Origin: Thermodesulforhabdaceae bacterium
GTDB taxonomy: Bacteria > Desulfobacterota > Syntrophobacteria > Syntrophobacterales > Thermodesulforhabdaceae
NCBI GenBank assembly: GCA_037482015.1
Contig: JBBFKT010000001.1
Span: 62,001-126,000, forward strand
Length of the DNA stretch: 64,000 nt
Direction of reading: 5' to 3'
The translations under genes were made by a program, and so were the position numbers. Shown piece by piece: positions 143 to 25,602 of this stretch; within the stretch, counting starts at the first letter, position 1, and each line of letters begins with the position of its first letter. The notes below the pieces were generated by a model. That model worked only from the letters and a program-made list of their open reading frames with translations. It did not search any database and was not told where the DNA came from.

Positions 143-1124
143 TAAATATTGCGAGATTAACAGGGAAAATCCCAAACTGGCTATAGTGGTGCCCTGTTAC
201 AATGAAGAAGAAGTTCTAGATAAAACTATAGCTACTTTAAGAAGTGTTTTAAGTGATCTTGTTTCGAGCCGTAAAATTTCTGAAGAAAGCTATATGCTTT
301 TTGTGGATGATGGTAGTAGAGATCAAACCTGGAACATTATAGTAAATCATTCAAAAAAGTTTCCTGTGGTGAAAGGAATAAAGTTATCAAGAAATAGAGG
401 GCATCAAATAGCCTTAATTGCTGGAATGCAATATGCAAAAGATAGATGTGATTGCTTGGTTACGATTGATGCTGATTTGCAGGATGATGTCGATGCTATC
501 AAACAGATGGTAGAAAAATATATTGAAGGCTATGATGTGGTCTATGGTGTAAAATGGGAACGCAGGGCGGATAGTTTTTTTAAGAGATTTACTGCAGAAT
601 TTTATTATCGCATAATGAATTTGTTTGGAGTAAATTTGGTTTTTAATCACGCAGATTTCAGGTTGCTATCTAGTAAAGCCACACGATATTTGCTAGAATT
701 TAAAGAAAGAAATGTTTTTATTAGAGGACTGGTTCCTCTAGTTGGTTTAAAGTCAACTTCTGTTTATTATAAAATAAATGAAAGACTTGGAGGGAAATCG
801 AAGTACACACTTAGGAAAATGTTTAGTCTTGCATGGGATGGTATTACGTCGTTTAGCATATTGCCTCTTAGGGTTATTTCTATCATTGGCTTTTTTATAT
901 TTATTGTTAGCATATTTATGGAAATTTGGGTTTTGGTGGTAAAGTTATTTACTGATGAAGCACTACCTGGGTGGGCATCAACAGTTTTGCCTATATACTT
1001 TATAGGTGGAGTGCAACTTCTTGCTTTGGGGGTTGTTGGAGAATATATAGGAAAGATGTACTATGAGGTAAAAAATAGACCATTGTATTTTATAGAAGAG
1101 GTAACATGGAATGCAAAAGACTAA
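135..1124 (+). CDS. GT2-family glycosyltransferase, GtrB/DPM1-like
   Basis: This is a predicted inner-membrane polyprenyl-phosphate sugar transferase of about 329 residues. The GT-A fold opens with AIVVPCYNEEEVLDKTI, then FVDDGSRDQTW and the catalytic-type TIDADLQDD. RNRGHQIAL lies between them. Two hydrophobic segments at the C-terminus (SIIGFFIFIVSIFMEIWVLVV and VLPIYFIGGVQLLALGVVG) match the GtrB/ArnC/DPM1-like layout. ATG 135 is chosen over an upstream TTG because GAGG lies about 10 bases before it and it overlaps the preceding stop. With the GtrA-like gene downstream, it probably charges undecaprenyl phosphate with a sugar for transfer outside the membrane. Confidence 0.85.
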   Translation: MSSKYCEINRENPKLAIVVPCYNEEEVLDKTIATLRSVLSDLVSSRKISEESYMLFVDDGSRDQTWNIIVNHSKKFPVVKGIKLSRNRGHQIALIAGMQYAKDRCDCLVTIDADLQDDVDAIKQMVEKYIEGYDVVYGVKWERRADSFFKRFTAEFYYRIMNLFGVNLVFNHADFRLLSSKATRYLLEFKERNVFIRGLVPLVGLKSTSVYYKINERLGGKSKYTLRKMFSLAWDGITSFSILPLRVISIIGFFIFIVSIFMEIWVLVVKLFTDEALPGWASTVLPIYFIGGVQLLALGVVGEYIGKMYYEVKNRPLYFIEEVTWNAKD

Positions 1125-1812
1125 ATTTGATGATTTCGCCATCAATTACGATGACCTGCTGCAAAAGCAGCATTCAACGTTTGGTGATATTTCTTATTAT
1201 AGCGAATATAAAATTAAGTTGGTTCATCAAATATCGGAGAAATATTTTGGAAAGAATTTGAGGTTAAATATACTGGAATATGGTTGTGGCACCGGTAGAA
1301 ACTTGCAATATTTTAATATGATGTTTCCAGAATCAAATATATTTGGATTTGACATATCAAGAAATAGTTTAGAAATAGCAAAATCTCGAAATGATAAAGC
1401 GATATTTTTGTGGAGCGAAGATGAATTGTTAAAATATTATAATAATTATTTTGATCTTGTATTTGTAGCAGGTGTATATCATCATATCCCTCCTGCTATG
1501 AGAAATTATGTCACGAGCGTTATTAAACATATTACGCAAAGACACGGGATTGTGATGGTCTTTGAACATAATCCATATAATCCTATTACAAGGCATATGG
1601 TAAATACATGCGAATTTGATGATGATGCTATTCTGTTATCGAAAGGTGAATTGATAAATCTTTTTGAGATCCTGGGATTTTATTTCTTAAAAGCTGGATA
1701 TACATTATTTTTCCCTCCCAGATTAAAAAAAGTGAGTTTTATTGAGAAGTTTATACATTGGATTCCACTAGGTGGGCAGTATTATGTTGTTTTTAAAAAG
1801 AGCGAACAATAA
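1111..1812 (+). CDS. class I SAM-dependent methyltransferase
   Basis: The protein has 233 residues with a Rossmann-type SAM site: ILEYGCGTGRNLQYF (motif I) and IFGFDISRNSLEIAK (acidic end of strand 2). DLVFVAGVYHHIPP (motif IV region) and a later MVFEHNPYNP follow. It starts at ATG 1111, overlapping the glycosyltransferase by 14 bases, so translation is probably coupled. Its place inside a glycosyltransferase/flippase operon suggests it methylates a sugar or lipid-linked glycan intermediate, but the substrate cannot be read from the sequence. Base composition is AT-rich like its neighbours. Confidence 0.8.
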   Translation: MQKTKFDDFAINYDDLLQKQHSTFGDISYYSEYKIKLVHQISEKYFGKNLRLNILEYGCGTGRNLQYFNMMFPESNIFGFDISRNSLEIAKSRNDKAIFLWSEDELLKYYNNYFDLVFVAGVYHHIPPAMRNYVTSVIKHITQRHGIVMVFEHNPYNPITRHMVNTCEFDDDAILLSKGELINLFEILGFYFLKAGYTLFFPPRLKKVSFIEKFIHWIPLGGQYYVVFKKSEQ

Positions 1813-1814
1813 AA

Positions 1815-2225
1815 ATGTCATATCAAGCTTTGTTTAATCAATTAAAAAGATTCGAGAATTTTTATAAGTATCTTATTGTTGGTTTTTTAATTACACTTAT
1901 TGGTTATAGTATAATATTCTTGTTGATGTATATTGGTGTATCTCCTGAAACAAGTAATATTATAGGATATGCTGTAGGCATAACGGTATCTTACATTTTG
2001 AACAAGGTTTATACATTTAAAAGCAAGGCTCACCCAAAAAAGGAATTTCCCAAGTTTTTGTTTTCACTTTTAATATCATATGGATTAAATCTTTTAACTT
2101 TAATTTTATGTGTGAGAACACTTTACATTAACATGTATATCTCTCAAGTCATAAGTGGAACTGTATATACATTAAGTGGGTTCTTTCTGGCAGAGTATTT
2201 TGCGTTTAGGAGGAAAGATGTTTAG
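1815..2225 (+). CDS. GtrA family membrane protein
   Basis: This 136-residue protein has four hydrophobic segments and matches the GtrA (PF04138) pattern: an N-terminal FYKYLIVGFLITLIGYSIIF, then GYAVGITVSYILNKVYTFKS and a C-terminal AEYFAFRR. GtrA proteins are thought to flip undecaprenyl-phosphate-linked sugars across the inner membrane. GtrA, a GtrB-like enzyme and a large membrane transferase in one operon form the three-part layout known from O-antigen glucosylation (gtrABC). The start ATG 1815 lies two bases after the methyltransferase stop. Confidence 0.85.
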   Translation: MSYQALFNQLKRFENFYKYLIVGFLITLIGYSIIFLLMYIGVSPETSNIIGYAVGITVSYILNKVYTFKSKAHPKKEFPKFLFSLLISYGLNLLTLILCVRTLYINMYISQVISGTVYTLSGFFLAEYFAFRRKDV

Positions 2226-4767
2226 TTCGAAGGAGAAGAATTATTACGCTTTATTAATATATTTTATTTTAACTATGGTTTTTTGGGGAGCACCATTGAA
2301 GTTTGATTTTATAAATAGTCTTCATATAGCTATGGATCCTGCGTTTTATCTTTGGAGTTTTAAATGGTGGCCCTATGCTCTATCTCATGGACTAAATCCC
2401 TTCCTAACAAAGGCTTTTTGGGCTCCATTTGGTCAAAATCTGGCATGGACTACATCTTGTCCTAGTATAACTATAATGTTGTGGCCTATTACTAATTTAT
2501 TTGGCCCTATTTTTTCATATCACTTTATAACTATAATATCTCTTGCCCTTGCTCCATATGGCATTTATTTAATCAACAAACAACTTGATTTAAAGAAAAT
2601 AAATTCTTTTATAGGTGGTTTGATATTTTTCTTTTCTTCTTATGTATGGGGTCAACTTTTAGGGCATCTAAACCTTTATGTTATATTTGCAATACCGTTT
2701 TTCCTTTACCTGACAGTCTTGAGGTTGAAGAGATCAATTGGGTCTAAAAGGTATGTTATTCTCTCAGCCTTATTGCTTGCATTTCAATTTGGTATATCCA
2801 ATGAGATATATGCTACCTTTGTATTGTTTGGATTTTTCGCTTTGTTTGTTTCGTTTTTAATTTTTATTAATGATGAGAATTGTAGGAAACTAATTTTTAA
2901 GATTTTTTTAGAATCTGTCTTGATTATTTTAATTAGTATTATTTTATTAAGCCCTTATCTATATTTTGTCTTTTATGAATATGTAAAAGAACAACTAAAC
3001 AGTCCACATGCTTTTTCAGCAGATCCCTTGAACTATCTGATCCCCACACCTATAACTATGTTATTTGGCGATTTATTTAAATTTATAAGTGTAAAATTTA
3101 CTGGCAATTTTAGTGAAGAAGGAGCATACCTTGGTTTGCCCTTAATATTTATCGTTGTTAGTTTTTTTGCAAAGTCATTTTCGACCAAAAATAAGTTTTA
3201 TATATTTCTTTCGATTATGTTTTGTGTGATTTTAATTTTTAGTTTTGGTCCATACCTAAGGATATTAAATTACCCAATAATACCAATGCCATGGTATTTA
3301 TTTACTAAATTACCGTTAATCCATCAAGCCTTACCAACTCGCTTTACTCTTTATACTTCAATGATTACGGCTATCATGGCCGCGATATGGTTGGAAAAAA
3401 CGAATATCAGCATAAAGTTAAAATATTTCGTAGCTATATTAGCCATTATTTTTCTAATTCCAAATTTGAATGTGTATAGAGGTCATAAGATAACATATCC
3501 TGCATTCTTAATCTCAGGTCAATACAAAGACTACATAAAATCGGGAGAAAATGTAATTATATTTCCTACATATGTTATGGGCGGTTTTCAAGGACCACTC
3601 TGGCAGCAAAGAACAGATTTTTATTTTAATGTCTCTCAAGGGTTTGCAGGTCCTATCCCATCGAGTCTTAAAGAAGATAAAAATGTTGCTATAACGCTAT
3701 ATAAGCTTATTTACGGAAAACCTACCCATATAAATGATCCTTTAATTTACTCTTTCATTCACTACCTTATAAAATGCGACGTAAGGGCTATTCTGTTACC
3801 AGATAGTTACCACAACAAGATCTTGGACGCCTTACTAAAATCCTTAGATATTGAGCCCATTCATACTGGTGGTGTTATTTTATACAAAGTAGACAAAGAA
3901 CAATTGCTTAGTAAAACTTTACCAAAGTATCATGAAAAAATTGCGAATTATTATGTCGATATTTTTGAAAACCTTTTTACTTCCTCCCAAAAATTTCTCC
4001 TGGACGGGGGGAGTTTATCCAGCCTTATTCCTCAATACCTTGAAGAACACAGTTATCTTGATAAGTCTTTTGGCTATCAAACAGGGAAAGCCGTTAACTG
4101 GACTCAGAATGGCGGCTGGATTGGAAAATGGGGTTGTCCTGATCGAAAAGGAGAGTGCTTCGGAGTGGGTATAGTTGGCGATGTAGACATGTTAAAACCC
4201 ATAATTGATAAATACAAATCTCAATCCTTGCAAATATTTTTCCCCTATCCCAAAACTTACACTCCAGACACTAAAGAAACCAATGGTCAGCTTCTTATGA
4301 TATTTAGAGCGCCAAAACCGGATAATGCAATCTCACAGATACCGTATACAATTGATTTTAGAGCAGGTGGCAATGCTGGTAGATTCATAAATAGCGGCTT
4401 TTGTAATCCGGAAAACTGGGGCACATGGAGTTGTGCTAAAGAAGCATTGCTTTCCTTCAGGCTAAAGGAAGTGCCCAGGCCGCTTTATCTAAAACTACAT
4501 TTCCATACGCTTACCACACCAAACCATTTCCAGAGAATTCAGTTTTATCTAAACGGAAATCTTTTGAAAGAGGAAAAATACACGGACTCAGGGAATAAAC
4601 AGCTAACCCTGGATGTCTCAAATTTGATTCAGCAAGAGAACATTTTGCTAATTAAAGTGCCGGATGCGGCTACGCCGAAGTCGCTTGGAATAAACACTGA
4701 TAGGAGGGAACTCGGCATAGGAATGGTTAGGTTGGAAATCAGTCCTGACGCTGGTGATGTAAAGTAG
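2218..4767 (+). CDS. large GT-C-like membrane protein with C-terminal soluble domain
   Basis: About 849 residues. The first ~430 hold some ten hydrophobic segments. The N-terminus has AMDPAFYLWSFKWWPYAL followed by a NPFLTKAFWAPFGQNL stretch, the D-x2-x-x-W / NP-x-T-x4-P-x-G pattern typical of uncharacterised GT-C-fold transferases. The last ~400 residues are soluble and probably extracytoplasmic, ending in a beta-rich segment with FYLNGNLLKEE. ATG 2218 is used because AGGAGG sits at 2209-2214; the 14-residue upstream extension is unlikely. It overlaps gtrA by 8 bases. By position it is the GtrC-like transferase that adds the sugar outside the membrane; substrate unknown. Confidence 0.65.
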   Translation: MFSSKEKNYYALLIYFILTMVFWGAPLKFDFINSLHIAMDPAFYLWSFKWWPYALSHGLNPFLTKAFWAPFGQNLAWTTSCPSITIMLWPITNLFGPIFSYHFITIISLALAPYGIYLINKQLDLKKINSFIGGLIFFFSSYVWGQLLGHLNLYVIFAIPFFLYLTVLRLKRSIGSKRYVILSALLLAFQFGISNEIYATFVLFGFFALFVSFLIFINDENCRKLIFKIFLESVLIILISIILLSPYLYFVFYEYVKEQLNSPHAFSADPLNYLIPTPITMLFGDLFKFISVKFTGNFSEEGAYLGLPLIFIVVSFFAKSFSTKNKFYIFLSIMFCVILIFSFGPYLRILNYPIIPMPWYLFTKLPLIHQALPTRFTLYTSMITAIMAAIWLEKTNISIKLKYFVAILAIIFLIPNLNVYRGHKITYPAFLISGQYKDYIKSGENVIIFPTYVMGGFQGPLWQQRTDFYFNVSQGFAGPIPSSLKEDKNVAITLYKLIYGKPTHINDPLIYSFIHYLIKCDVRAILLPDSYHNKILDALLKSLDIEPIHTGGVILYKVDKEQLLSKTLPKYHEKIANYYVDIFENLFTSSQKFLLDGGSLSSLIPQYLEEHSYLDKSFGYQTGKAVNWTQNGGWIGKWGCPDRKGECFGVGIVGDVDMLKPIIDKYKSQSLQIFFPYPKTYTPDTKETNGQLLMIFRAPKPDNAISQIPYTIDFRAGGNAGRFINSGFCNPENWGTWSCAKEALLSFRLKEVPRPLYLKLHFHTLTTPNHFQRIQFYLNGNLLKEEKYTDSGNKQLTLDVSNLIQQENILLIKVPDAATPKSLGINTDRRELGIGMVRLEISPDAGDVK

Positions 4768-5205
4768 TTCTTTTTGTTGCTTAGTGGAACGGCGGATATA
4801 TAGGCTTTATGTCTGTTGACCCTGCCCAGGAAATAAATTAGCCGAAAACACCCGAAAATTTTCTTTGCCCAAATAGACCTGACCCGCAAATGCCAGAAAT
4901 ATCCCTGGATGTAGCTATAGAGCTTGTTTTTTGTCGTGAAATTCCCGTTATTAAATTTATCATAAAGAGTCGTTTTCTATCAGTGCAAGGTTTGTTTATA
5001 AGCAAGTTCTACACTTTGTTATTCTGGTTTTGGGTTCAAACGTAGAGTCAGAAAATTGAAGAATTCTCTTTTTATATCCCAAAAATTCAACACTAAAAGG
5101 TACAACTCCTGATTCTCTTCATTTTATAAGCGGCAGGAAAGTTTAAGATGTTTTCCTGCCGCTTTCATTGCTTTCATTAACAGAGAGCTTTTTCAGTGGC
5201 CATGA
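4768..5205. other. intergenic region between convergent genes
   Basis: This 438-base gap lies between the glycan island and the convergent protease cassette. Apart from the hairpin at 5128-5165 I see no gene, tRNA or repeat. Short open frames here lack ribosome sites and recognisable peptides. It also marks the shift from the AT-rich island to the average composition of the rest of the window. Confidence 0.6.
5128..5165. terminator. bidirectional hairpin terminator
   Basis: Perfect 13-bp arms, AAGCGGCAGGAAA and TTTCCTGCCGCTT, enclose an ~11-base loop. The right arm is followed by a T-rich stretch on the + strand, and a TTATAAAAT run follows on the minus strand. It is placed to end the minus-strand protease gene and any read-through from the + strand glycan operon. 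Confidence 0.7.
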
Positions 5206-7326
5206 TTATGGTGTTTCCGAAGGATTATAGTAATAATGGACTCCGCTGATAGGACTGAGCTGAGTTGATCCAACAAGATTTTGCCAGGAAGACCAGGATG
5301 TACCGTTGTAAGACCTGAGATAAACATCACCACTTGTTCCTTTTACAGTTATGTACATTTTATTGGTCTGGGGCATCACTGTAAGTCTTGGAGCTTTATC
5401 AGTTGCGCCACTTAAAGTACTCCAGCCGCTCCAGGCTTCGCTTGTATTTAAATAGCCATAGTAAATAGCAGTGCTACTGCCCGATCCTTTCACAGCTACA
5501 TATAACTTGTTGTTATAAACCGCTACTGCCGGTTCATGACTGGTTGATCCTGGAATTGTTTTCCAGCTTCCCCAGGTTCCTGATGCATCCATACTCCTGT
5601 AATAAATGCCACCACCGGTACCCCTTACGAATATGTAAAGTTTATTGTTAAAACTCACCAGGGCCGGCGAGTGATTAGTAGCCCCCGACAAAGTTGACCA
5701 GGAAGACCAAGTGCCAGAAGCTGACCTATTTCTGTAATATATGCCAGTACTTGATCCTCCACCTTTTACGGCTAGATAAAGACGGTTATTGAAGCTTGCA
5801 AGAGATGGTGCCGCAGATGTTCCTCCAGAAATAGATGTCCAGCTCGTGCTTTCCCATCCTTTTCCGTCTCTTGAAGCCATCCATAACGATTCGCTTCCAT
5901 TTCCTTTAACCACAACATATTGCCTGTTTCGAAAGACTGCTACGCCAGGAGTTGCATCGGTCGCCCCATTTGGGATTGTTTCCCACGATGATTCAAGAGT
6001 GCCGGAATAAGTCATGTATTTAAAGTATATTTTTTTATCGCCTCCAACGACATATGTGTATAACCTGTTTAACGGTTGAATATTTACCATCGCATATTCA
6101 ACATTGGGGGAGCACCCTGACCAGGGACAGTAGAGGTTGTCAACAGCATACCAGGCATCGTATGATCCACCCCATCCGTAATTCACGTGCATATACTGGG
6201 TGGTTCCGTCCCTTGCCCCATCGCATACAATTGAGTGGTTCTGTATTCTATACTGAATGGGGCGTGGCAGGTAACTGTCAAATTGTGGTTTTATAACCTC
6301 GTTAAACCAGGCAGTGGAAGAGGCATAGCTACTTCTGTCTTTCTTTTGAATAACATTGGCGTATTTGAAATAGGTCGGAAATACCGTTTGAGCATCACCC
6401 GTATAAGCACCAGATGCACAAACACCATAGTCCATTGAAAAAGCTACACCCATTTCATAGCAGAGTTCCGCTACTGCCGCCGCCTGGGTAGAATTATAGG
6501 ATCCGCTATAGGAATCCAGCATGTTATCCCAATCGTAAGAATCACTATAGGTAGCACTTAAAGTCTGAGGGCCTGGCGTATGTCCGCAGGAGTCATCACC
6601 ATCCCAGGTGTAGGATTTGCTTCCGGTGCCGCTATATGGATACTTCCAGTAATAGGCAATTTGAGAAGCCGCTGTAGCTACACAACCAACTACCGTCCTG
6701 GGGGGAGAACAGCTAGGATTTGTACATGATGTGTCCCCAATAGGACAGTTATCGTTAAAAGGAGTTCCTTGATGCCATGTGGATGAAAGAAGAGGTCCCC
6801 AGTCAGGAGCCATTTCCATTGAATCACTTGAGGAGTAATCCTCCAGCAACTTTTTCCATGAAGGATGCCTTGATAAAACACCGAGATCCTGTTCCGGTAT
6901 TGCCTCTAGGGAACCATAACGGTCCTTTAAGGCATCTATAGTGGCACCCAGGGTATCCTTGATTAAGGCCGAATAGCTCTCTTTCCTTGGATCATTCACA
7001 TCAAAGTCTTCAGTGGTGGAGTAAGACTTTACCGCTGCAAGCTGGGTAATTCGAGGAACCACTATGTGACCAGCTGGATGAATTGAAAATTTATAGCCAA
7101 GAAGTTCTCCGTCTTTTCCCCTAATTTCGGCGCTGTCCTTGATGGAAGGAGTTTTGCTACCTCCCCAATCGCCGTAAGTCGTAACGATTTGATGTAACCA
7201 TTTTTCAGCAACAATTTGAGCATCTGAAAAGCTTACAATCTCGCTCCAAACATAGGAAGGAATTAATAGAAAAATAGACAGCACCAGAGATCTAAGCAAA
7301 TTTTTCAAAAACCCTTTTTCTTGCAT
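5206..7326 (-). CDS. secreted C10 (streptopain-like) cysteine protease with propeller-like repeats
   Basis: The protein has 706 residues. Residues 1-28 are a signal peptide (LVLSIFLLIPSYVWS). A pro-region follows, then a C10 catalytic domain with the nucleophile in VVGCVATAASQIAYYWKYP (Cys215) and the catalytic His in NHSIVCDG (His364). HVNYGWGG comes next at 380-387, as in SpeB. From ~420 to the end come six repeats of about 45 residues with the pattern LY-V-VKG...IYYR...W-SSW-x-x-(I/L)-x-GAT...P. These look like blades of a PLL/sialidase-like beta-propeller that could bind glycans. The start has GGAGGA upstream. The same repeats end the C1A protease next door. Confidence 0.85.
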   Translation of the reverse strand: MQEKGFLKNLLRSLVLSIFLLIPSYVWSEIVSFSDAQIVAEKWLHQIVTTYGDWGGSKTPSIKDSAEIRGKDGELLGYKFSIHPAGHIVVPRITQLAAVKSYSTTEDFDVNDPRKESYSALIKDTLGATIDALKDRYGSLEAIPEQDLGVLSRHPSWKKLLEDYSSSDSMEMAPDWGPLLSSTWHQGTPFNDNCPIGDTSCTNPSCSPPRTVVGCVATAASQIAYYWKYPYSGTGSKSYTWDGDDSCGHTPGPQTLSATYSDSYDWDNMLDSYSGSYNSTQAAAVAELCYEMGVAFSMDYGVCASGAYTGDAQTVFPTYFKYANVIQKKDRSSYASSTAWFNEVIKPQFDSYLPRPIQYRIQNHSIVCDGARDGTTQYMHVNYGWGGSYDAWYAVDNLYCPWSGCSPNVEYAMVNIQPLNRLYTYVVGGDKKIYFKYMTYSGTLESSWETIPNGATDATPGVAVFRNRQYVVVKGNGSESLWMASRDGKGWESTSWTSISGGTSAAPSLASFNNRLYLAVKGGGSSTGIYYRNRSASGTWSSWSTLSGATNHSPALVSFNNKLYIFVRGTGGGIYYRSMDASGTWGSWKTIPGSTSHEPAVAVYNNKLYVAVKGSGSSTAIYYGYLNTSEAWSGWSTLSGATDKAPRLTVMPQTNKMYITVKGTSGDVYLRSYNGTSWSSWQNLVGSTQLSPISGVHYYYNPSETP

Positions 7327-7387
7327 TTTTTTCTATCCTCCTTTACGTTGCTTAAATCAGACACTATTCCTGCTATTCTTGTGCCTT

Positions 7388-7879
7388 TTATTGATCCGGA
7401 AGCATTATGTGCTCCGGATGTGCCCTAATGCGAAGCAGTCTCAAAGGCCCTTTGTTTGTATAGGCATTGACTCCCTCGATGGTGCCTTCCACATAAATCA
7501 GCTTCCGAGAGGATATTTTCTGAAGTTTTCGAAAAAAAGGAATCGTGTTATTTCCGGAAACATAGATTTCTATAGAGTCAGATGGATCATGATAGGGATC
7601 TGGTTTCCCCGTAATAATAAATTTTTCGTAGTCCAGCCAGGGGTGTTTTTCTCTGTACCAGATGTTAACAGGATCGAGGTAGCCTTTTAACTTAACTGTT
7701 TTTCCTTCACAGCAAAGAATGTTTCCGCATTTTCCTAACTTTTCACATAGAGAGTGCACTTCCTGTATAGTCATGTAAGCTTCTTGGTTTTCCGCTTCGA
7801 CTCCACCTGGCTGGAATGCGCAAGCTCCAACTAATACAACCAGGAATATCGTAATTGCAAACTCACTAACAACTGCCAT
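7388..7879 (-). CDS. small lipoprotein, hypothetical
   Basis: The protein has 163 residues. An N-terminal hydrophobic stretch ends in the lipobox LVGAC, so it is probably lipid-anchored and periplasm-facing or on the outer membrane. The mature part carries paired cysteines (LCEKLGKCGNILCCEGK) and then a beta-rich region with VKLKGYLDPVN and KLIYVEGTIEG. The latter resembles a small OB-fold, which is inference. It sits between the two protease genes on the same strand, 61 bases before the C10 protease and 39 bases after the C1A protease. I do not recognise the family. A role as a protease partner or inhibitor is only a positional guess. Confidence 0.6.
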   Translation of the reverse strand: MAVVSEFAITIFLVVLVGACAFQPGGVEAENQEAYMTIQEVHSLCEKLGKCGNILCCEGKTVKLKGYLDPVNIWYREKHPWLDYEKFIITGKPDPYHDPSDSIEIYVSGNNTIPFFRKLQKISSRKLIYVEGTIEGVNAYTNKGPLRLLRIRAHPEHIMLPDQ

Positions 7880-7918
7880 TCCTTATCCTTCAAGAGAATA
7901 GCAATGTTTTTAATCGCT

Positions 7919-9841
7919 CTAAGGTCCACCAAAATAATAGGTGCTAATAGCAGGCGATGCCGAAGTAGCTCCTGACAGGGTTGTCCAGTTAGACCAATTT
8001 TGTTCAATGCTGTCATAATATCTGTAGTAAATAGCAGTGGAAGATCCGGATCCTTTCACACTAAGAGAAAGAATGTTAGCTGTTGGACCTGCTGTTACCA
8101 TAGGGGTGGAAGATGTGGCACCACTTATTTTTGTCCAGCTAGACCAGGAAGTTCCATTAAAGGTTATATAAGAAATGTTGCTGGAAAGTGGAGTTGTCGT
8201 GTCCCCTTTTGCAAATACCCATAACTGATTTTGAAAGACTGTTGCGGAGGGAATGTGCGTAGTTTGCATCTGGGTAAAATAATACCACCCTCCCCAGGCG
8301 CCCGAGCTATCCATTTGCTTAAAATAAATCTTATGATCACTTCCCAGATCAAACACCCAGAGCCTGTCGTCATAAACAATGGCAGCAGGGGAATCTAAAG
8401 TATTGGAACCGGGGACTGTAGCCCAGGAAGACCAGGTGCCTGAGGTGGTCATACTTCTATAATAGATTGGTGCGTAACTGGAGTTGCCTTTTACGAACAC
8501 ATAGAGTTTGTTGCGATAAACAACCATAGCCGGTGCTGATGGAGTGACCCCTCCAATGTTTGTCCAGGAAGACCAGGTCCCTGGTACCAGGTAATCTTTT
8601 GAACGAACGAAAGTGTTGCCATTAGTACCCCTCACAGCCATGTAGAGTCGGCTATTAAAGGGAACCAAAGCGGGAGCATGGGTGGTTGCTCCATCAATGG
8701 TCTGCCATGAACCCCAGCCACTGGAGGTTTTGCTCCTTACAAAGATATTGTTTGATGTTGAACCTTTGACGGCCATGTACAGACGATTGTAATTGTTATA
8801 AGTAGTATTTAAAGTCATAAATTGTCTAGAATACCACGAGCTTCCCCCTTCTTGAATTGTGCACCCATAATTCATGTACATCTTCATGCGGAACAAACCG
8901 TTAGGTCTGTTTCCACCAGAAGTTCCCCAGCTGTTCAATACAATCCAGTAATGGTTGTTGGGATCTGCATCATCGTCATTGTATCCTACAATCAGAACAG
9001 CATGTCCTCCCCCTTCATTATCTACCCAGGTGTGGCCACAATAGGGATCGGGATTCCAGAGGGTGGATTCATTCTGGCTCCAATAGGTATAAAAAGCGTT
9101 CCAATCAGTATTATTTGCAAGCCAGAAAGCAAACCATACACCCTTATATTGCATGAGCACATTTTTTATATTGTTGATAGCCGTGGTCTGGGATACACCT
9201 GTTGTAGTAATTGTTTGAGCTGTAACACCTCCACCGGGTATTCCATAAAAGGGATTTGCACCAATAGAAGAGCATGCAACATTACTTGAACCATTGTTAC
9301 AAGTTCTGGAGCCATCGGCAAACTGTCCATTGGTATTAGACCAGGGACGTGGATTGGAAGATGTGCTATAGTAGTTAGCAAAAGTATTTAAATTACCTCC
9401 ACAACAGGCATAAGAAGAGCTGAAGCAAGAATTAAACCACTGGATTGATAGACGGTCTCTTACGAGGTTGTTCAAGCTGTGGGCAATTTCCATAATACCG
9501 GTTCCTGTCCATACCCAGCAATTGCCGCAAGATCCCTGGTTTCTTTCCGAAGGGGTATAGACTATGTAGTCAAGAAGTAAAGGCTTTGGTATTTGGGCGG
9601 TCTCACCATATTCTTTGGCTTCGAGCAAGGCATTGATAGTATCATCTATTGGAGCCTTAGGGGCTCGAAGATAGTCATCATACCAAGATCGCCTCGTTGC
9701 CTCGTCGGGTCTCATGATTGACTGATCAAGGACATCAAAATTGATACTTGAAGTGGCTTCTTCAGAGGCGAAAACTTGAATGGCCAGCAGAGTAACAAGC
9801 AAAAATAACAAAAGACCCAAGGAACCCTTCATTTTCTTCAT
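7919..9841 (-). CDS. secreted C1A papain-like cysteine protease with propeller-like repeats
   Basis: The protein has 640 residues. A signal peptide (LGLLLFLLVTLLAIQVFA) and a short pro-region precede a papain fold. NQGSCGNCWVWTG holds the nucleophile Cys108, GGGHAVLIVGY holds His280, and IVLNSWGTSGG holds Asn303. A cysteine-rich insert (YACCGGN) lies between them. From ~350 on come six repeats with the W-SSW-x-x-(I/V)-x-GAT signature, closely matching those of the C10 protease at 5206-7326. The start is supported by AGGAGA upstream. It is probably exported and bound to cell-surface or environmental glycans by the repeats while it digests protein; this role is inferred from the domains. Confidence 0.88.
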   Translation of the reverse strand: MKKMKGSLGLLLFLLVTLLAIQVFASEEATSSINFDVLDQSIMRPDEATRRSWYDDYLRAPKAPIDDTINALLEAKEYGETAQIPKPLLLDYIVYTPSERNQGSCGNCWVWTGTGIMEIAHSLNNLVRDRLSIQWFNSCFSSSYACCGGNLNTFANYYSTSSNPRPWSNTNGQFADGSRTCNNGSSNVACSSIGANPFYGIPGGGVTAQTITTTGVSQTTAINNIKNVLMQYKGVWFAFWLANNTDWNAFYTYWSQNESTLWNPDPYCGHTWVDNEGGGHAVLIVGYNDDDADPNNHYWIVLNSWGTSGGNRPNGLFRMKMYMNYGCTIQEGGSSWYSRQFMTLNTTYNNYNRLYMAVKGSTSNNIFVRSKTSSGWGSWQTIDGATTHAPALVPFNSRLYMAVRGTNGNTFVRSKDYLVPGTWSSWTNIGGVTPSAPAMVVYRNKLYVFVKGNSSYAPIYYRSMTTSGTWSSWATVPGSNTLDSPAAIVYDDRLWVFDLGSDHKIYFKQMDSSGAWGGWYYFTQMQTTHIPSATVFQNQLWVFAKGDTTTPLSSNISYITFNGTSWSSWTKISGATSSTPMVTAGPTANILSLSVKGSGSSTAIYYRYYDSIEQNWSNWTTLSGATSASPAISTYYFGGP

Positions 9842-9855
9842 TGGCTTCTCCTTTT

Positions 9856-10275
9856 TTAAAGATTGTTTTTTGACCAGGGGAATACAAAAAAAACAGGGGT
9901 ACAGGAACCTAATTCTATTACCATTAATTCACAATTAATAGCACTTCCTTCTCTGATACGATACTTTTCAAGAAACCATTTTTTGGGTAAAGATCCGTCT
10001 TCTAAAAGGAGAGGTAGATCACCCTTAATCATATTTAGGGCAAAGGGTTCCTTGATCTCTAAATTAGAATGAAATACAAATTTAACCTCAAATTCGTCTT
10101 CGCTTTCAATACGACCTGGTCCCACCTTTTTTACGGAAACAACTTTTGCCACACCGGGGTAGCTTTTATAATTACAGGCTCCCCCTACATTTTTCACCTC
10201 CTTTCCCTCAGGGGAAGAAAAACATCCCCATAACACAACGATATAAGCTACTAATAATGCTACACTTACTTTCAT
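9856..10275 (-). CDS. small lipoprotein, hypothetical
   Basis: About 139 residues from ATG 10275, preferred over a 20-residue longer start because AGGA precedes it and it begins directly with the signal segment VSVALLVAYIVVLWGC. LWGC is a plausible lipobox. The mature part has YPGVAKVVSVKK, an EFEVKFVFHSNL strand pair and a C-terminal GSCTPVFFVFPW. I do not recognise the family. It lies 14 bases upstream of the C1A protease on the same strand and is probably the first gene of a four-gene unit (lipoprotein, protease, lipoprotein, protease). Confidence 0.6.
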   Translation of the reverse strand: MKVSVALLVAYIVVLWGCFSSPEGKEVKNVGGACNYKSYPGVAKVVSVKKVGPGRIESEDEFEVKFVFHSNLEIKEPFALNMIKGDLPLLLEDGSLPKKWFLEKYRIREGSAINCELMVIELGSCTPVFFVFPWSKNNL

Positions 10276-10379: not shown

Positions 10380-10868
10380 TCAGCCTCGATTTTGACCTTT
10401 TGAGTGTTTCATCACAAAATTAACCCTTTGAAACAGTAACAAAATAAGGAAGAGTGTAACCAGGAGGTACATGTTATAAAGCACGAAGACAGCCAGGGCT
10501 TTGTTTTGAGTTATATCATCTACTTTTACCCTGAAATTAGGATCTATTTTTTGTTTTATTGTCCCGAATAGGCTTTCGATAAGGTATCTTTGATCTTCAT
10601 ATTCTTTCCAAAGAGCCTTAGAGGCTTTCCTGAGAGGATGCCCTACTTTCTGTCTTGGGGTTTCCTTTACCCTTATGACATGTTTTAGCCTAGCTTTCTC
10701 AAATATTTCCATCAAACTAATACTGTCATAACATTTATCCGCTATAAGACATTGATTTTCCAGGTTTAACCAATCAATTTGATCCAGAGCCCTCATAAGA
10801 AGTTTTACTTCACTGGCATAGGCACTTCCCGTCTCAACTGTAGCAATAACTCTTTGGCTCATGTTCAA
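10380..10868 (-). pseudogene. C-terminal remnant of a DDE transposase (IS4/IS5-type)
   Basis: About 160 residues corresponding to the C-terminal half of an IS transposase: TVETGSAYASE, CLIADKCYDSISLMEIF (second catalytic Asp region) and RYLIESLFGTIKQKID (catalytic Glu region). A hydrophobic tail follows (LAVFVLYNMYLLV). The N-terminal half with the first catalytic Asp is missing. The frame begins exactly inside the left inverted repeat of the adjacent IS1595-type element. The missing half is not found on the other side of that element, so this is a decayed remnant, not a gene simply split by one insertion. It should be inactive. Confidence 0.75.
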
Positions 10869-10879
10869 AAGTAGTGCAA
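10852..10879 (+). repeat. left terminal inverted repeat of the IS1595-type element
   Basis: It reads CTTTGGCTCATGTTCAAAAG and onward into the element. It pairs with the right copy with four mismatches, at repeat positions 14, 19, 20 and 22. It also supplies the first codons of the truncated neighbouring transposase frame. Confidence 0.65.
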
Positions 10880-11789
10880 CCTAACCAACTGAGAGATAAA
10901 AGCAGGGGAGATTCGTTTCAAGTTGATCCGGAACTCACACATCGCCACATAACCGGCCAGGTACTTTTTGTGCACGCCACGGAAAGGACGCAGAAAATTG
11001 CGTACCGTTGTCCATAACCCCTCACAGGTATTCACATGTACCTCTCGCTTCCCATCACCGTCATCATCCCGTGCCCACTCTCGCTTGCCATGGTATACCG
11101 TTTTGTGAACCCGAACGATGTGATCATACCCCTGCCATTCATCGGTGAATACCACCGCCTGAGCGCAGGTAAATCGGTAGACATGGTCTTCCAGTATCTC
11201 CCGCGTGGTCCGATGAACGACCCGCAGCCGTACCTGCCCACTCTCCCGGCCAACTGTCCCCACAATCGGCGGACGATCCTTATCGTATGTCCCGTGCCCC
11301 CGCCGCTTGTTTCCCCGCCGCCGAGGTGGATCAGCCGGATCGGCGTGTTTCTCACCTTTTTTCCCCCGCATTCTGAAACAGTTCATCGGTTTCCGTCTGC
11401 TGATCTCCCAAAGGGATCTCTGGCTGGATCTTCTGGGCGTTTCGTTGAATCCTTTGCCGAAGGGTATGGACGGTGGTTCGGCTTAGCCCCAATTCCCCGG
11501 CCAGAACCGCTGAAGATTCCCCCTTGCACACTCCTCTTAAAAGGAGAATAACCTGAGACGGGCTGAGTTGTTTTCCCTGAAAGAGCGTCCCGCTATACAC
11601 GTTGTAAATTCGGTGACAGTGACGACATCGATAAACGGTCAAGTTACTCCGACGAGTGCGCCGGAAGATGCGAGCGGCTTCTATTCCACGTCCACAGCCT
11701 GGGCACTTCAACCCATTGGGATGGAAGTATTTCATCAGCCACTGTTCACTGAGTTCATCATCTAAAAGGTCAACTATCGGGAACTCCAT
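10865..11789 (-). pseudogene. IS1595-family transposase, frameshifted
   Basis: The N-terminal part (from ATG 11789, MEFPIVDLLDD) has a zinc ribbon, CPGC...CRHC, and a helix-turn-helix, LGLSRTTVHTLRQR. It reads up to TETDELFQNAGEK and meets TGA at 11352-11354. The C-terminal part continues in another frame with KHADPADPPRRRGNKRRGHG, VVFTDEWQGYDH (second Asp) and NTCEGLWTTVRNFLRPFRG. Family members read ...NAGEKG... straight through. Here the run of six A (T6 at 11357-11362 on the + strand) is one base too long. A +1 shift is needed, so this is not a classic -1 slippery site. It is probably inactive, unless transcriptional slippage restores the frame. Confidence 0.8.
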
Positions 11790-11829
11790 ACATAAACTCC
11801 AAGAAAAAAGTCCAGTATAGTATACTCTA

Positions 11830-11857
11830 TTGCACCAGGTTTGTACATGAGCCAAAG
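11830..11857 (-). repeat. right terminal inverted repeat of the IS1595-type element
   Basis: The reverse complement begins CTTTGGCTCATGTACAAACC and matches the left copy at 24 of 28 positions. It lies 41 bases upstream of the transposase start at 11789. Confidence 0.65.
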
Positions 11858-11879
11858 TTTTTTTCGCTTTCGTTTTCAA

Positions 11880-12052: not shown

Positions 12053-12082
12053 GTTTCGATCTCACAGTGGTTCAATTTGAGC
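12053..12082 (-). repeat. degenerate terminal CRISPR repeat (trailer end)
   Basis: This is the last repeat of the array in transcription order. It differs from the consensus at four positions (GTTTCGATCTCACAGTGGTT then CAATTTGAGC). The next copy at 12120-12149 has one of these changes (CAATTT for CGATTT). Decay at the leader-distal end is typical of old array ends and supports the assigned direction. Confidence 0.85.
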
Positions 12083-15000
12083 TATCCAGCCGTTGGGGAG
12101 AAATATGCCTTAGATTACAGTTTCAATCCCACAATGGTTCAATTTGAGCCCGAGAGCCAACTTTTCTATCACGAAAGGCAAAAAAGTTTCAATCCCACAA
12201 TGGTTCGATTTGAGCAAGTGAAAAAGATCCACCAGAAGAGCATACATTCGAGTTTCAATCCCACAATGGTTCGATTTGAGCCCTACTCCTTTAGTCCGTA
12301 GCCCTTATTTTGACTCTGTTTCAATCCCACAATGGTTCGATTTGAGCCCAAGAGTTTCCCTAAGTTCGTTTGGTTTATTACTTCGTTTCAATCCCACAAT
12401 GGTTCGATTTGAGCTGTAAAGATCTTGGTCTGCTGGGTCAGAATAGAGATGTTTCAATCCCACAATGGTTCGATTTGAGCTGAGTAGTAAAAACAATATT
12501 TTCTGAAATAACAAAGTTTCAATCCCACAATGGTTCGATTTGAGCCGGTTTCGGGCTTTCTGTCTTTCAGCTTAAATGTTGTTTCAATCCCACAATGGTT
12601 CGATTTGAGCACGATGATCTTTCTGTGCTCATTAGTCAATACAAGCGTTTCAATCCCACAATGGTTCGATTTGAGCTGATTAACGCCTTGAAGCAGATAA
12701 AGAAAATCAGCGTTTCAATCCCACAATGGTTCGATTTGAGCACTTGCGGTTTACACATCCACTTCAATTGTATCTTCTGTTTCAATCCCACAATGGTTCG
12801 ATTTGAGCCATACAGTCTCTTACCGTCCACTATGTGTATAACACTGTTTCAATCCCACAATGGTTCGATTTGAGCGAATACCCTCCGACCTCGGTTGACG
12901 AGCTCCTTCGGCGGTTTCAATCCCACAATGGTTCGATTTGAGCGAGTCCTGACGCCGCCTCCTCAGCGCCACTGATGGAGTTTCAATCCCACAATGGTTC
13001 GATTTGAGCACGGTGGTGTAAGAGATATGGCCGCCGTGATATCAGTTTCAATCCCACAATGGTTCGATTTGAGCCTGGGCTCAGGGATTGCGATCCCGGG
13101 GATGTTCTAGTTTCAATCCCACAATGGTTCGATTTGAGCCGAATCCAGCTTCAAGTGAGCCATCATGTTTGCAATGTTTCAATCCCACAATGGTTCGATT
13201 TGAGCCAGATTGATTGCGGTTAGCCAAGTGGGAATGTCTTCGTTTCAATCCCACAATGGTTCGATTTGAGCGTATCTTCTTGGGAGATTCCCAAGAAGAA
13301 TTTCTGAGTTTCAATCCCACAATGGTTCGATTTGAGCTTCTCAAGTTCTATGGGAACCATTGCTTTGTCCTCTGTTTCAATCCCACAATGGTTCGATTTG
13401 AGCTATTGCCGATGCCGTTGGTATAACGAAGACGAAGACGTTTCAATCCCACAATGGTTCGATTTGAGCTTTTCGACCCAGGAGCAAAACAACACGTTAG
13501 AGCACGTTTCAATCCCACAATGGTTCGATTTGAGCTGATCCAGCTCGCTCTTAGATCTGGACAATACAAGGTTTCAATCCCACAATGGTTCGATTTGAGC
13601 CGCAACAGCTCGAGCGGGCGTGTCCTTCCCACCCGTGTTTCAATCCCACAATGGTTCGATTTGAGCTCAAAGAAGGTGTCACTATCATTCTCATTGATAC
13701 CTAGTTTCAATCCCACAATGGTTCGATTTGAGCGCTAGCATATCCTCCAGTTATTCTAAGGTCTTTCCAGTTTCAATCCCACAATGGTTCGATTTGAGCT
13801 CCAACCTCTATCAGACTATCTTAATACTGATTGTCGTTTCAATCCCACAATGGTTCGATTTGAGCCCTGAGTCCCTGCCCAGTATAATAGGAATCCTTAG
13901 CCGTTTCAATCCCACAATGGTTCGATTTGAGCCGAAGGACAGAAAAATGAAAGAGTTTTTTGAATCAGTTTCAATCCCACAATGGTTCGATTTGAGCTTT
14001 GTTGTTTTATATTATATTGCGAAGATAACATCAGTTTCAATCCCACAATGGTTCGATTTGAGCGTGTTGGTAGTATTTAATGAGTTGTTAAAGAAGTAGT
14101 TTCAATCCCACAATGGTTCGATTTGAGCCTGAAGAGAGAGTCTGAGCGTAGAAAAGCAATGTTGGTTTCAATCCCACAATGGTTCGATTTGAGCGTTCGC
14201 CTTACCTTCCGTATCAACCGTCACAAGCTCGTTTCAATCCCACAATGGTTCGATTTGAGCTGTGCATAAGGAGTCGGGGAGGACGGTAGAGGTAGTGGTT
14301 TCAATCCCACAATGGTTCGATTTGAGCGGAGTGGAGATAGGGTGTGATGGGTGTGTGACTCCTGGTTTCAATCCCACAATGGTTCGATTTGAGCAGTAGA
14401 ATTTCAGAGGTGGTAGGGGAGAGGTGGGTTAGTTTCAATCCCACAATGGTTCGATTTGAGCAAGCATCAATCTTGTCTCTCATGTTTAGCCCTCCTCTGT
14501 TTCAATCCCACAATGGTTCGATTTGAGCTAAGAGTATTTTAGACTTACCAGAGGGAATCAAAAGTTTCAATCCCACAATGGTTCGATTTGAGCCAAAATA
14601 CTCCCACTCCCCAACTCAAGAACAAAATCGTTTCAATCCCACAATGGTTCGATTTGAGCTAGCGATAGAGTTATTGCCGATTCCACACAAAGACGTTTCA
14701 ATCCCACAATGGTTCGATTTGAGCAGGGAAAACTGGACGGAATTTAACGCCGTCTCTCCTGTTTCAATCCCACAATGGTTCGATTTGAGCCTCCGAATCC
14801 TTCTCACTATCGCCCCTACTACCGCGTTTCAATCCCACAATGGTTCGATTTGAGCTGATAATCCTTGTAGGCATTCCATTTTACAAACAAGGTTTCAATC
14901 CCACAATGGTTCGATTTGAGCCATATACCTCTACCCTTAAAGGCGTCTTGACTAGAAGGTTTCAATCCCACAATGGTTCGATTTGAGCCCAAGCATGAGT

Positions 15001-18000
15001 GTTTCCGTGTAGTCGAACTTTCCCGTTTCAATCCCACAATGGTTCGATTTGAGCTCGAGCTTTACGAACAAATCTTCCTCGCTCACCCAGGTTTCAATCC
15101 CACAATGGTTCGATTTGAGCTGCGCTTCTTGCAGTTGGTAATCATTCTCAAGTTCTAGTTTCAATCCCACAATGGTTCGATTTGAGCTCCGTGGGAAAAA
15201 GCCTTCGATTACCTGCTAGCAAAGTTTCAATCCCACAATGGTTCGATTTGAGCGTAATACTTTTCTTCACGAAGTCAATTTCCCATTCGGTTTCAATCCC
15301 ACAATGGTTCGATTTGAGCTGAAGACCACGCCGAAAACGTCCTCACCATTCTAAAGTTTCAATCCCACAATGGTTCGATTTGAGCCATTTTTATTTCTTC
15401 CTTCCTTAGATATCCATTCCGAGTTTCAATCCCACAATGGTTCGATTTGAGCATCATAGTTTCATAGTTTTCAGAGTCAGTTTAGGAGGTTTCAATCCCA
15501 CAATGGTTCGATTTGAGCCATTACCAGTCATAATTGTGTCATCATACATATATAGTTTCAATCCCACAATGGTTCGATTTGAGCAGTGTTCGAGCGAGAG
15601 GCTAGGATATGGCTAGGCGAGTTTCAATCCCACAATGGTTCGATTTGAGCCGAACGGGACCTCTCATATAGTGGAACTCCTTCCTGGTTTCAATCCCACA
15701 ATGGTTCGATTTGAGCCAAACGAGATCAGGATCTATAGCTCTAGTTCTGAGAGTTTCAATCCCACAATGGTTCGATTTGAGCTGGTATGGCGGTCTTGGT
15801 GCTTATAATATCACCTGCTCGTTTCAATCCCACAATGGTTCGATTTGAGCTACCGTGGAAAATCCAGCTTGGTTACAGATGAGAAGGTTTCAATCCCACA
15901 ATGGTTCGATTTGAGCCAATAATGTTGCCTTTGTCGTCTCTAATGAAATCATGGTTTCAATCCCACAATGGTTCGATTTGAGCCTTTTACTCGGTATCGA
16001 TTATGACGAATACACGCTCGTTTCAATCCCACAATGGTTCGATTTGAGCTCAATCATAGTTTCATAGTTTTCATAGCTGCAGCCCTGTTTCAATCCCACA
16101 ATGGTTCGATTTGAGCCCCATAGACGACTATGACGAGAACGTAGATATTCCAGTTTCAATCCCACAATGGTTCGATTTGAGCGCTTACCTTCTGGAATAC
16201 GCAAGCTGGACAAGCTGCGTTTCAATCCCACAATGGTTCGATTTGAGCTCTAGAGCTACCAGCTGAGAACGTCAGGATCGTCCAGTTTCAATCCCACAAT
16301 GGTTCGATTTGAGCAGACAACTCGATCTATCTTGTGAGTGAGTCCTTCCTGTTTCAATCCCACAATGGTTCGATTTGAGCTTTGCGAAAGCGGGGCGCCT
16401 TGCTTCCTCTTCTCGTCGTTTCAATCCCACAATGGTTCGATTTGAGCTAGCAGAATTATTTTAGTTCCAGATGGGATTTATAAGTTTCAATCCCACAATG
16501 GTTCGATTTGAGCGGGGAGCCCGAAGGCTCCCAGATTTGCGGTTATTCCGTTTCAATCCCACAATGGTTCGATTTGAGCTAATCAATAATGACGGTGCTG
16601 GTATCGGCTATGTTAGTTTCAATCCCACAATGGTTCGATTTGAGCCCAGAACGCGCGCACTGACGAGATTAGAATCTTTAGTTTCAATCCCACAATGGTT
16701 CGATTTGAGCGGGAAAATGACGTCGCAATCCTCGCAAGTTAACCTCCGTTTCAATCCCACAATGGTTCGATTTGAGCTGTTTACCGTTCCCGATAATCTT
16801 TTCTCCCCACACTGTTTCAATCCCACAATGGTTCGATTTGAGCTACTGTTGCCAAAGAAAATCCTATTGAAGTGAATAGTTTCAATCCCACAATGGTTCG
16901 ATTTGAGCTAGACAATAAGTTTCAACTTTTTCTAAAAATCCCCGTTTCAATCCCACAATGGTTCGATTTGAGCGTCAGCGAGATACGGGGGCGAGTTAAT
17001 ACGTGTAGAGTTTCAATCCCACAATGGTTCGATTTGAGCGATTTTCTTTGGCAACAGTAAGGAAGCAATCCTCGCGTTTCAATCCCACAATGGTTCGATT
17101 TGAGCGACTAAGTACAAGGCCGGATTGGTATTATTTCATAAGTTTCAATCCCACAATGGTTCGATTTGAGCATAGTCGGAAAATTAGCTTCACCTCACCA
17201 TTTTCCCGTTTCAATCCCACAATGGTTCGATTTGAGCGAGGACCACGCCGGGAATGTTTCGGAGATTCTCAAGTTTCAATCCCACAATGGTTCGATTTGA
17301 GCTCTAATTTCATAGCTTTCCCTCCTTTAGTAATTTGTTGTTTCAATCCCACAATGGTTCGATTTGAGCGGGCTTTTATGGTTATTCATAGTTATCGTTA
17401 TAAGCGTTTCAATCCCACAATGGTTCGATTTGAGCCTAATAGCTGATTTAATTTCGCTATGTTCCCGCTCAGTTTCAATCCCACAATGGTTCGATTTGAG
17501 CTCATGTTTCATGTAACTAATCTGAGCTTCTTGCACTGTTTCAATCCCACAATGGTTCGATTTGAGCAAAGGCTCCCACTTCTCGAACACGTCTTCCAAG
17601 ATAGTTTCAATCCCACAATGGTTCGATTTGAGCAAAAGATCCCGTGGCGAGAAGCTTTTGATTATCTTTGTTTCAATCCCACAATGGTTCGATTTGAGCT
17701 AATAATCTGCGCCAACAACCCTTCCGCTCTACCTTGTTTCAATCCCACAATGGTTCGATTTGAGCACGAAAAGTTACAACTTTTTCTGAAAATCCCCCCG
17801 GTTTCAATCCCACAATGGTTCGATTTGAGCCACTCCCAGAACTACCCGCCCCATCCGAATCTACAGGTTTCAATCCCACAATGGTTCGATTTGAGCATGA
17901 GCTTAAAAAGATTCCTGTGTATCATACACCTGGTTTCAATCCCACAATGGTTCGATTTGAGCCCAGCTCGCTCGATGGGTCGATCCCCTTAAGCGTAGTT

Positions 18001-19022
18001 TCAATCCCACAATGGTTCGATTTGAGCTTTTCTCTCGCAAGGCGTCTTTCTTCCTCTTCTTGTCGTTTCAATCCCACAATGGTTCGATTTGAGCTTAGAC
18101 CCATTCTTGAGGGGATTTGGGCACTTGTGAGTTTCAATCCCACAATGGTTCGATTTGAGCCAAGGTTGGATATGTTCCTCAACGATCCGCAAATTGGTTT
18201 CAATCCCACAATGGTTCGATTTGAGCAGCTGTTAACACCCCCCGAAGGGGGGCAGATTTTTTTGTTTCAATCCCACAATGGTTCGATTTGAGCCCATTGA
18301 ATTCTTCCTTAGTGAAGAACTGAAGAAAGTTTCAATCCCACAATGGTTCGATTTGAGCTTTCTCTGACGACGAGCACGTCGCTGTGTGGCGTTTGTTTCA
18401 ATCCCACAATGGTTCGATTTGAGCCTCCCTGGAAGAGAGCGCCGCCCTAAGCAATACACCGTTTCAATCCCACAATGGTTCGATTTGAGCGATGGAGAGC
18501 AATTATATTAGCCTAACAAATTACTAAGTTTCAATCCCACAATGGTTCGATTTGAGCCGCTACAGCGTGAGCTAGAGCGGTCTTCCCCACGCCGTTTCAA
18601 TCCCACAATGGTTCGATTTGAGCTTTTAATGTGCTCCGGCAGGCGTCTGAATATTTCAGAGTTTCAATCCCACAATGGTTCGATTTGAGCCCAAAACGAT
18701 CTTTCAAAGCATCAATCTTTTCTCTCAGTTTCAATCCCACAATGGTTCGATTTGAGCAGCTGCTAACTACGTTAGTAAAGCGCTTGCTAGCGAGGTTTCA
18801 ATCCCACAATGGTTCGATTTGAGCGATAAAAGTTATCGAGAAGCTAAGCAGATTGTCGATGTTTCAATCCCACAATGGTTCGATTTGAGCCAGACGAGTC
18901 CCAGTTGGGTACTCGTCCGAGCCATGTTTCAATCCCACAATGGTTCGATTTGAGCCAGAACAAGACCGTCATCCCATCTGAACGACAAGACAGTTTCAAT
19001 CCCACAATGGTTCGATTTGAGC
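12053..19022 (-). CRISPR. type I-B CRISPR array, 106 repeats and 105 spacers
   Basis: A 30-bp repeat begins GTTTCAATCCCACAATGGTT and ends CGATTTGAGC on the + strand. It recurs with a period of 65-68 bases from 12053 to 19022; counting by eye gives 106 copies with spacers of 35-38 bases. Read on the minus strand the repeat ends in GGGATTGAAAC. Its last eight bases, ATTGAAAC, are the classic 5' handle of type I-B crRNAs, so transcription runs from high to low coordinates. The only degenerate copies seen are the first two at the low end. This agrees with a leader at the high end next to cas6. All short reading frames inside the array are repeat artefacts. Confidence 0.98.
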
Positions 19023-19152
19023 CAAGGTTAAAATACAGTATTTTCAAGGAACGGGCAACTCAAAATTGCGGCAAATGTCAAGTAGCCAGAATTTGCCCAG
19101 AGATCGACGGCAACGATTGCGTAGTGTATAAGATGGAACTCTGGATTGATTT
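19023..19152 (-). promoter_or_regulatory. CRISPR leader
   Basis: These 130 bases separate the leader-proximal repeat (18993-19022) from the cas6 stop codon. By repeat orientation and by the decayed opposite end, this is where new spacers should enter and where array transcription should start. A TTGACA hexamer occurs on the minus strand (19076-19081). TTGAGT with TACTGT 17 bases further is another possible -35/-10 pair nearer the array. It is less AT-rich than many leaders. The promoter itself is a guess. Confidence 0.6.
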
Positions 19153-19905: not shown

Positions 19906-19914
19906 TCTAAATTT

Positions 19915-20181
19915 TCACCCCAGGATCTGGTCTATAATAACTTTCTCCCGGCCTATGGTCTCTTTTCGCAAATACTTCTTGTGCGGTAAGCGATATATGT
20001 AAACACTATCATGTTCGGGATCGATTAGTTTTTTTAATTCCATCTTCAAACGTTCCAGCTGCGATTCACTCAGGTCTCCCTCAAAAGCACTATTTTGCAC
20101 CCAGTGTAAAAAGCGTCTCAGACATTTGCACACTTTATTAACGCGTATCTGTTCCACATCATAGACTATAACCACATACAT
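19915..20181 (-). CDS. cas2: Cas2 adaptation protein
   Basis: The protein has 88 residues with the ferredoxin-like Cas2 start MYVVIVYDVEQIRVNKVCKCLRRF, including the conserved YDV. It also has HWVQNSAFEGDLSESQ and the strand VYIYRLPHKKYL. It forms the Cas1-Cas2 spacer integrase. It sits 15 bases after cas1 and 9 bases before cas6. Length and motifs are normal for type I-B. Confidence 0.95.
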   Translation of the reverse strand: MYVVIVYDVEQIRVNKVCKCLRRFLHWVQNSAFEGDLSESQLERLKMELKKLIDPEHDSVYIYRLPHKKYLRKETIGREKVIIDQILG

Positions 20182-20196
20182 ACGTCTTCAACACCT

Positions 20197-21216: not shown

Positions 21217-21219
21217 TTT

Positions 21220-21732: not shown

Positions 21733-21791
21733 ATCAAATGATGAAATCCGATAACAGACCTGACATTCGCTACTAAAAGGTGTCTTTAGAA

Positions 21792-25599: not shown

Positions 25600-25602
25600 G
25601 GT

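Follow-up and report, generated by a model that had tools for sequence, protein, structure and literature searches.

Papain-clan cysteine proteases encoded beside a small partner protein have been described before. In Bacteroides, C10 proteases are co-transcribed with lipoproteins or periplasmic proteins, Bfi and Bti, that are candidate inhibitors (PMC2873492, PMC3462683). In the SpeB-Spi and staphopain-staphostatin systems, too, a cysteine protease has a small partner to which it is linked genetically, and the cytoplasm is the presumed site of action of Spi and the staphostatins (PMC2873492, PMC3462683). Here, we analyzed a four-gene cassette within a 64,000-nt stretch of DNA (hereafter, the window) from a Thermodesulforhabdaceae bacterium. 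It resembles the Bacteroides arrangement in that the gene of a secreted papain-clan protease adjoins one for a small exported protein, either a lipoprotein or soluble in the periplasm. It differs in that the conserved pair involves a C1A enzyme, in its propeller tails, and in having two protease families per cluster. Moreover, its two small predicted lipoproteins, named L1 and L2 here, match no known inhibitor family, and no sequence relation of either to Spi or the staphostatins was detected. A first-pass annotation of the window had stated that no system with such a layout is described; this is only partly right, given the published Bacteroides C10 proteases and their candidate inhibitors. 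A cysteine protease with a linked small exported partner is an arrangement already known, and the cassette varies on it. The new element is L1, which represents an unnamed family with a conserved connection to C1A proteases.

Table 1. Positions of the cassette, its parts and neighbors in the window, and of features at other loci mentioned in the text.
Sequence	Feature	Positions	Strand	Remarks
Window	Four-gene cassette	10275-5206	minus	
Window	L1, small predicted lipoprotein	9856-10275	minus	139 aa, ATG start
Window	C1A (papain-family) secreted protease	7919-9841	minus	640 aa; PF00112, 8e-14
Window	C1A C-terminal six-repeat beta-propeller, PLL/PHL-type	7919-8812	minus	
Window	L2, small predicted lipoprotein	7388-7879	minus	163 aa
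Window	C10 (streptopain-family) secreted protease	5206-7326	minus	706 aa; PF01640, 4.5e-46
Window	C10 C-terminal six-repeat beta-propeller, PLL/PHL-type	5206-6108	minus	
Window	15-bp hairpin	5128-5164		Directly past the C10 stop
Window	Insertion-sequence remnants	10380-11879		Beside the cassette
Window	CRISPR array, then type I cas genes	12053-27108		
L071 (Chloroflexota)	Lipoprotein-like gene	4559-4945		44 bases upstream of C1A
L077 (Chloroflexota)	Lipoprotein-like gene	478-1329		50 bases upstream of C1A
L134 (Rhodocyclaceae MAG)	C10 and C1A proteases	237-3884		
L153	Secreted protein gene	3604-4368		Directly ahead of C1A
L154	Secreted protein gene	4907-5683		Directly ahead of C1A
G414 (L156)	Broken C1A-PLL gene	3243-4618	minus	

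The four tightly packed genes follow one another in the order L1, C1A protease, L2, and C10 protease, with intergenic gaps of 14, 39, and 61 bases from the first gene to the last (Table 1). Good ribosome-binding sites precede the C1A (AAGGAGAAG), L2 (AAGGATAAGG), and C10 (AAAGGAGGATAG) genes, and a weaker one precedes L1. These sites, together with the short gaps, fit co-transcription of the four genes as one unit. The hairpin is a possible end of the operon transcript; it is a weak intrinsic terminator at best because its minus-strand tail is not T-rich. Gene order, strand, and protease families are as first annotated, and the motifs QGSCGNCW and VVGCVATAA are both present. Calling the two proteases unrelated was an overstatement, however, since C1A and C10 are different families within the same papain clan CA.

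The 2.7 Mb genome contains a single match to PF00112 and a single match to PF01640, and these are the C1A and C10 proteases of the cassette. The second genome sampled from the genus yielded nothing related to the four proteins above the thresholds used, hence the distribution of the cassette is patchy. In an empty-site comparison, the DNA flanking the cassette was not found in close relatives. A plasmid search with L2 returned no match, and one with the C1A protein returned 26 records (from Streptomyces, Deinococcus, and Tolypothrix), all below 60% identity and, among the matches listed, only via the tail. Viral contigs contained no relative of the C1A protein. The insertion-sequence remnants beside the cassette include a C-terminal piece of an IS5-type transposase and an IS1595-like transposase that is divided between two overlapping frames and has inverted arms of 35 bp.

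The C1A protein is composed of a signal peptide, a conserved MRPD pro-region, a catalytic domain, and a PLL-type tail. It scores 52.6 bits against PF00112 (cut-off 20.7), and its catalytic domain matched cathepsin and cruzipain chains in the PDB. The catalytic residues Q102, C108, H280, and N303 are intact and fall in invariant columns of alignment A3. The C10 protein consists of a long propeptide, a catalytic domain, and a PLL-type tail; its PF01640 match (158 bits, cut-off 26) covers the full length of the model, and C10 chains were matched in the PDB.

Each tail comprises six repeats of 45-52 residues. The W-x-x-W motif is found in all six C1A repeats and in four of the six C10 repeats; overall identity between the tails is 38%. 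The earlier description of closely similar W-SSW repeats was therefore correct in their number and slightly strong in the word 'closely'. By sequence, the C1A tail matched PHL (PDB 5mxe) with E values of 1e-36 to 2e-36, and the whole C10 protein matched the same entry with an E value of 9e-27, the best stretch (residues 536-686) lying in the tail. The C1A tail, modeled with AlphaFold2 from two sequences only, had a pLDDT of 85 and a pTM of 0.87, and its top fold matches in the PDB were PHL and PLL2 (E 9e-14, TM 0.80). These lectin matches exclude a generic secretion-related sequence as the nature of the repeats and bear out the proposal of a PLL-type propeller of common origin. Mean blade-comparison scores were 79 between the two tails, 63 and 83 within them, and 35 against the PLL-type blades of another genome, G414. 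Since blades are as alike between the two proteins as within them, and far less like those of G414, the tails come from a common source. No register shift gave a clear ancestral blade order common to both tails, so blades were likely gained and lost once the tail had been acquired.

PLL lectins have seven blades (PMC6943638). The cassette tails resemble the Photorhabdus PLL/PHL lectins (PDB 5mxe, 5c9o, 6rfz, 6t96) in sequence family, in fold (a propeller), and in their W-motif repeats, but they have six repeats rather than seven and are fused to proteases. Repeat counts and the C1A model, in which the last (closing) strand is of low confidence, suggest a six-bladed PLL variant. Judging from the retained W-x-x-W motifs, sugar binding by the tails is plausible, as is joint targeting of both proteases via the common tail. 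Tail exchange is common in the C1A clade, because its members bear differing tails: CARDB, Big_5/BACON, SdrD_B, PKD, or unassigned in the six other members scanned. The PLL tail on both proteases is thus a local feature, save for one decayed gene. This gene, in G414, is the sole other C1A-PLL gene found; it is broken into two pieces in different frames, and most of the catalytic domain, including the region of the catalytic cysteine, is missing. The special feature of the window is that two protease families carry one tail type in a single operon-like cluster.

Of 395 genomes sampled from the phylum, 19 encode an L1 homolog. Six of these (the window's own genome, G086, G374, G234, G389, and G317) have the L1 gene immediately ahead of a C1A gene in the same orientation, and in a seventh, G340, it lies just downstream of two C1A proteases. 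A further search of GTDB r220 contigs, for which window-type C1A domains were aligned as the query, yielded 68 loci. L1 adjoins C1A in 12 of them (L067, L068, L072, L073, L075, L076, L078, L081, L098, L105, L113, and L115), two of which duplicate G340 and G317. In total, L1 is upstream of C1A at 16 distinct loci, window included, with gaps that range from an overlap to ~400 bases, and downstream at one. L1 therefore shares with staphostatin-like and Bfi/Bti proteins a gene position next to a papain-clan protease. The expectation that homologous proteases elsewhere would have lipoproteins alongside was borne out for L1, which stands beside C1A proteases in distant genomes. Among the 395 genomes, the C1A clade is present in 11, and both L1 and the clade in five (Fisher p = 5.7e-5; 5.5e-4 when the window's own genome is excluded; counts uncorrected for shared ancestry). 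L1 has no adjacent protease in 12 of the 19 genomes; in one, G015, a window-type C1A protease is present elsewhere in the genome.

The association differs between lineages. Among clade members with upstream sequence, 12 of the 21 from bacterial phyla excluding Chloroflexota (Nitrospirota, Thermodesulfobacteriota, Myxococcota, and five more) have L1 next to them, as against none of the 30 from archaea or Chloroflexota (p = 1.9e-6, uncorrected for ancestry). Archaea and Chloroflexota have no outer membrane. When the L1 label was mapped onto a quick tree built from 64 C1A domains, nine changes were required, compared to 12.9 for shuffled labels; this count is inflated by two rows from G340 (L061) that are the same as L072 but were wrongly labelled 'none'. 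The number of changes indicates that the L1-C1A pair was repeatedly gained or lost. Two Chloroflexota loci (L071 and L077) carry lipoprotein-like genes directly upstream of C1A that are unrelated to L1.

Near-invariant motifs of the L1 family are GGxCxYxxYxG and, further on, GTCTP, the latter within a conserved GTCTPvlFdFP. The window's L1 has a lipobox, VLWGC as read by eye, in which the cysteine is present and the W at -2 is unusual. However, the lipid-attachment cysteine is missing in four of 13 aligned L1 proteins (L067, L072, L078, and L113). The family is thus a mixture of predicted lipoproteins and anchor-less secreted proteins, which argues against a membrane anchor as its common function. 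Searches of L1 against Pfam and PDB sequences gave no match. An AlphaFold2 model of L1 (pLDDT 83) had no significant match in the PDB and viral fold libraries; the best E value was 0.13, and the weak matches include OB-like barrels.

L2 also has a lipobox with its cysteine (LVGAC, read by eye), and its strand pattern appears OB-fold-like. Searches against Pfam and the PDB gave no significant match. Similarity to known protease inhibitors was not found for L1 by sequence or fold, nor for L2 in Pfam and the PDB. No homology between L1 and L2 was detected (HHalign probability 0.3%). We found one clear homolog of L2, in G340 (E 1e-15), a genome that encodes L1, L2, two window-type C1A proteases, and two C10 proteases; there, L2 and C10 lie apart. 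The 18 other C10 loci examined all lack an adjacent L1 or L2 relative (nine judged by reading neighboring frames, the other nine also by profile search). By gene neighborhood, then, the L2-C10 pairing is not conserved and is seen in this window only, so that of the two lipoprotein-protease pairs first proposed, L1-C1A is supported and L2-C10 is not.

We propose that the cassette is one operon, and that its two cysteine proteases would leave the cell via Sec and act outside it. The common PLL-type propeller would tether both to a glycan-bearing target, such as cell debris, a polymer, or the surface of another cell. L1 would be exported along with the C1A protease, reside in the periplasm or on the membrane, and there bind and block any C1A enzyme that is activated before it exits the cell. 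By its position and by analogy, L2 may perhaps play the same role toward the C10 enzyme. We consider the chances of this account as a whole to be evenly balanced. Since the clade lives without L1 in monoderm organisms, L1 is not required for folding or activity of the C1A protease; rather, it is the presence of a periplasm that seems to create the need for L1. A guard role fits a protein that is linked to the periplasm, whether lipidated or soluble, and is encoded just ahead of a secreted protease. Bfi and Bti, the proposed inhibitors encoded next to C10 proteases in Bacteroides, likewise comprise both lipidated and soluble proteins (PMC2873492, PMC3462683). On the other hand, no inhibitor fold was recognized in the predicted model of L1, the L1 genes without a neighboring protease may point to a wider role, and ancestry by itself could explain why archaea and Chloroflexota lack L1.

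The same gene order and periplasmic location would equally be expected if L1 were a periplasmic chaperone or secretion escort for C1A, assisting its folding, disulfides, or outer-membrane passage, instead of an inhibitor. L1 is missing where the outer membrane is missing, and its cysteines are conserved, both in keeping with an escort. Nevertheless, nine of the 21 clade members outside archaea and Chloroflexota lack an adjacent L1, which indicates export independent of one, and L1 matches no known chaperone; we therefore regard this alternative as rather unlikely, though worth weighing. We think it improbable that the cassette reflects chance, with unconnected degradative enzymes and small lipoproteins brought together in a region that insertion sequences have shaped. 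The adjoining insertion-sequence remnants and the absence of cassette relatives from the genus's other sampled genome are compatible with chance, but L1-C1A adjacency is seen again in distant genomes, and both proteases are single-copy here with a tail that is rare among their relatives. Least probable of all is that the lipoproteins are anchors, one of the first-pass suggestions, or docking partners, keeping the proteases on the producer's outer membrane: both L1 and L2 of the window have a lipobox-like cysteine, but the L1 proteins without one weaken this reading, and proteases accompanied by L1 bear wholly different tails.

If L1 blocks its neighboring C1A protease, as we predict, an unnamed family of small periplasmic proteins gains a candidate function. 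More tentatively, and with the odds somewhat against it, L1 could be the type member of an unrecognized class of periplasmic guards: small beta-barrels unlike chagasins, cystatins, or staphostatins that would shield Gram-negative anaerobes from their own papain-family enzymes, with monoderms and archaea doing without such a guard. The secreted C1A proteases themselves form a clade with freely swapped tails that spans syntrophic bacteria, methanogens, ANME-related archaea, and Bathyarchaeota, and its enzymes may be relevant to extracellular protein breakdown under anoxia.

The MRPD-type C1A clade (L079-L125) is common to syntrophic bacteria (Syntrophaceae, Smithella) and archaea (Methanothrix, Methanospirillum, ANME-2, and Bathyarchaeota), suggesting transfer between domains. 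In the Rhodocyclaceae MAG, C10 and C1A proteases are encoded on the same strand with ~400 bases between them, and L1 was not found at that locus. Two related genomes (L153 and L154) have a secreted protein gene directly ahead of C1A, and the L153 protein carries a Peptidase_S74 (endosialidase chaperone) domain. Further along the window is a CRISPR array of 106 repeats (GTTTCAATCCCACAATGGTTCGATTTGAGC) at a spacing of 65-68, followed by type I cas genes that encode Cas6, Cas1, Cas4, Cas3, Cas5, a Cas7/DevR-like protein, and a 501-aa protein.
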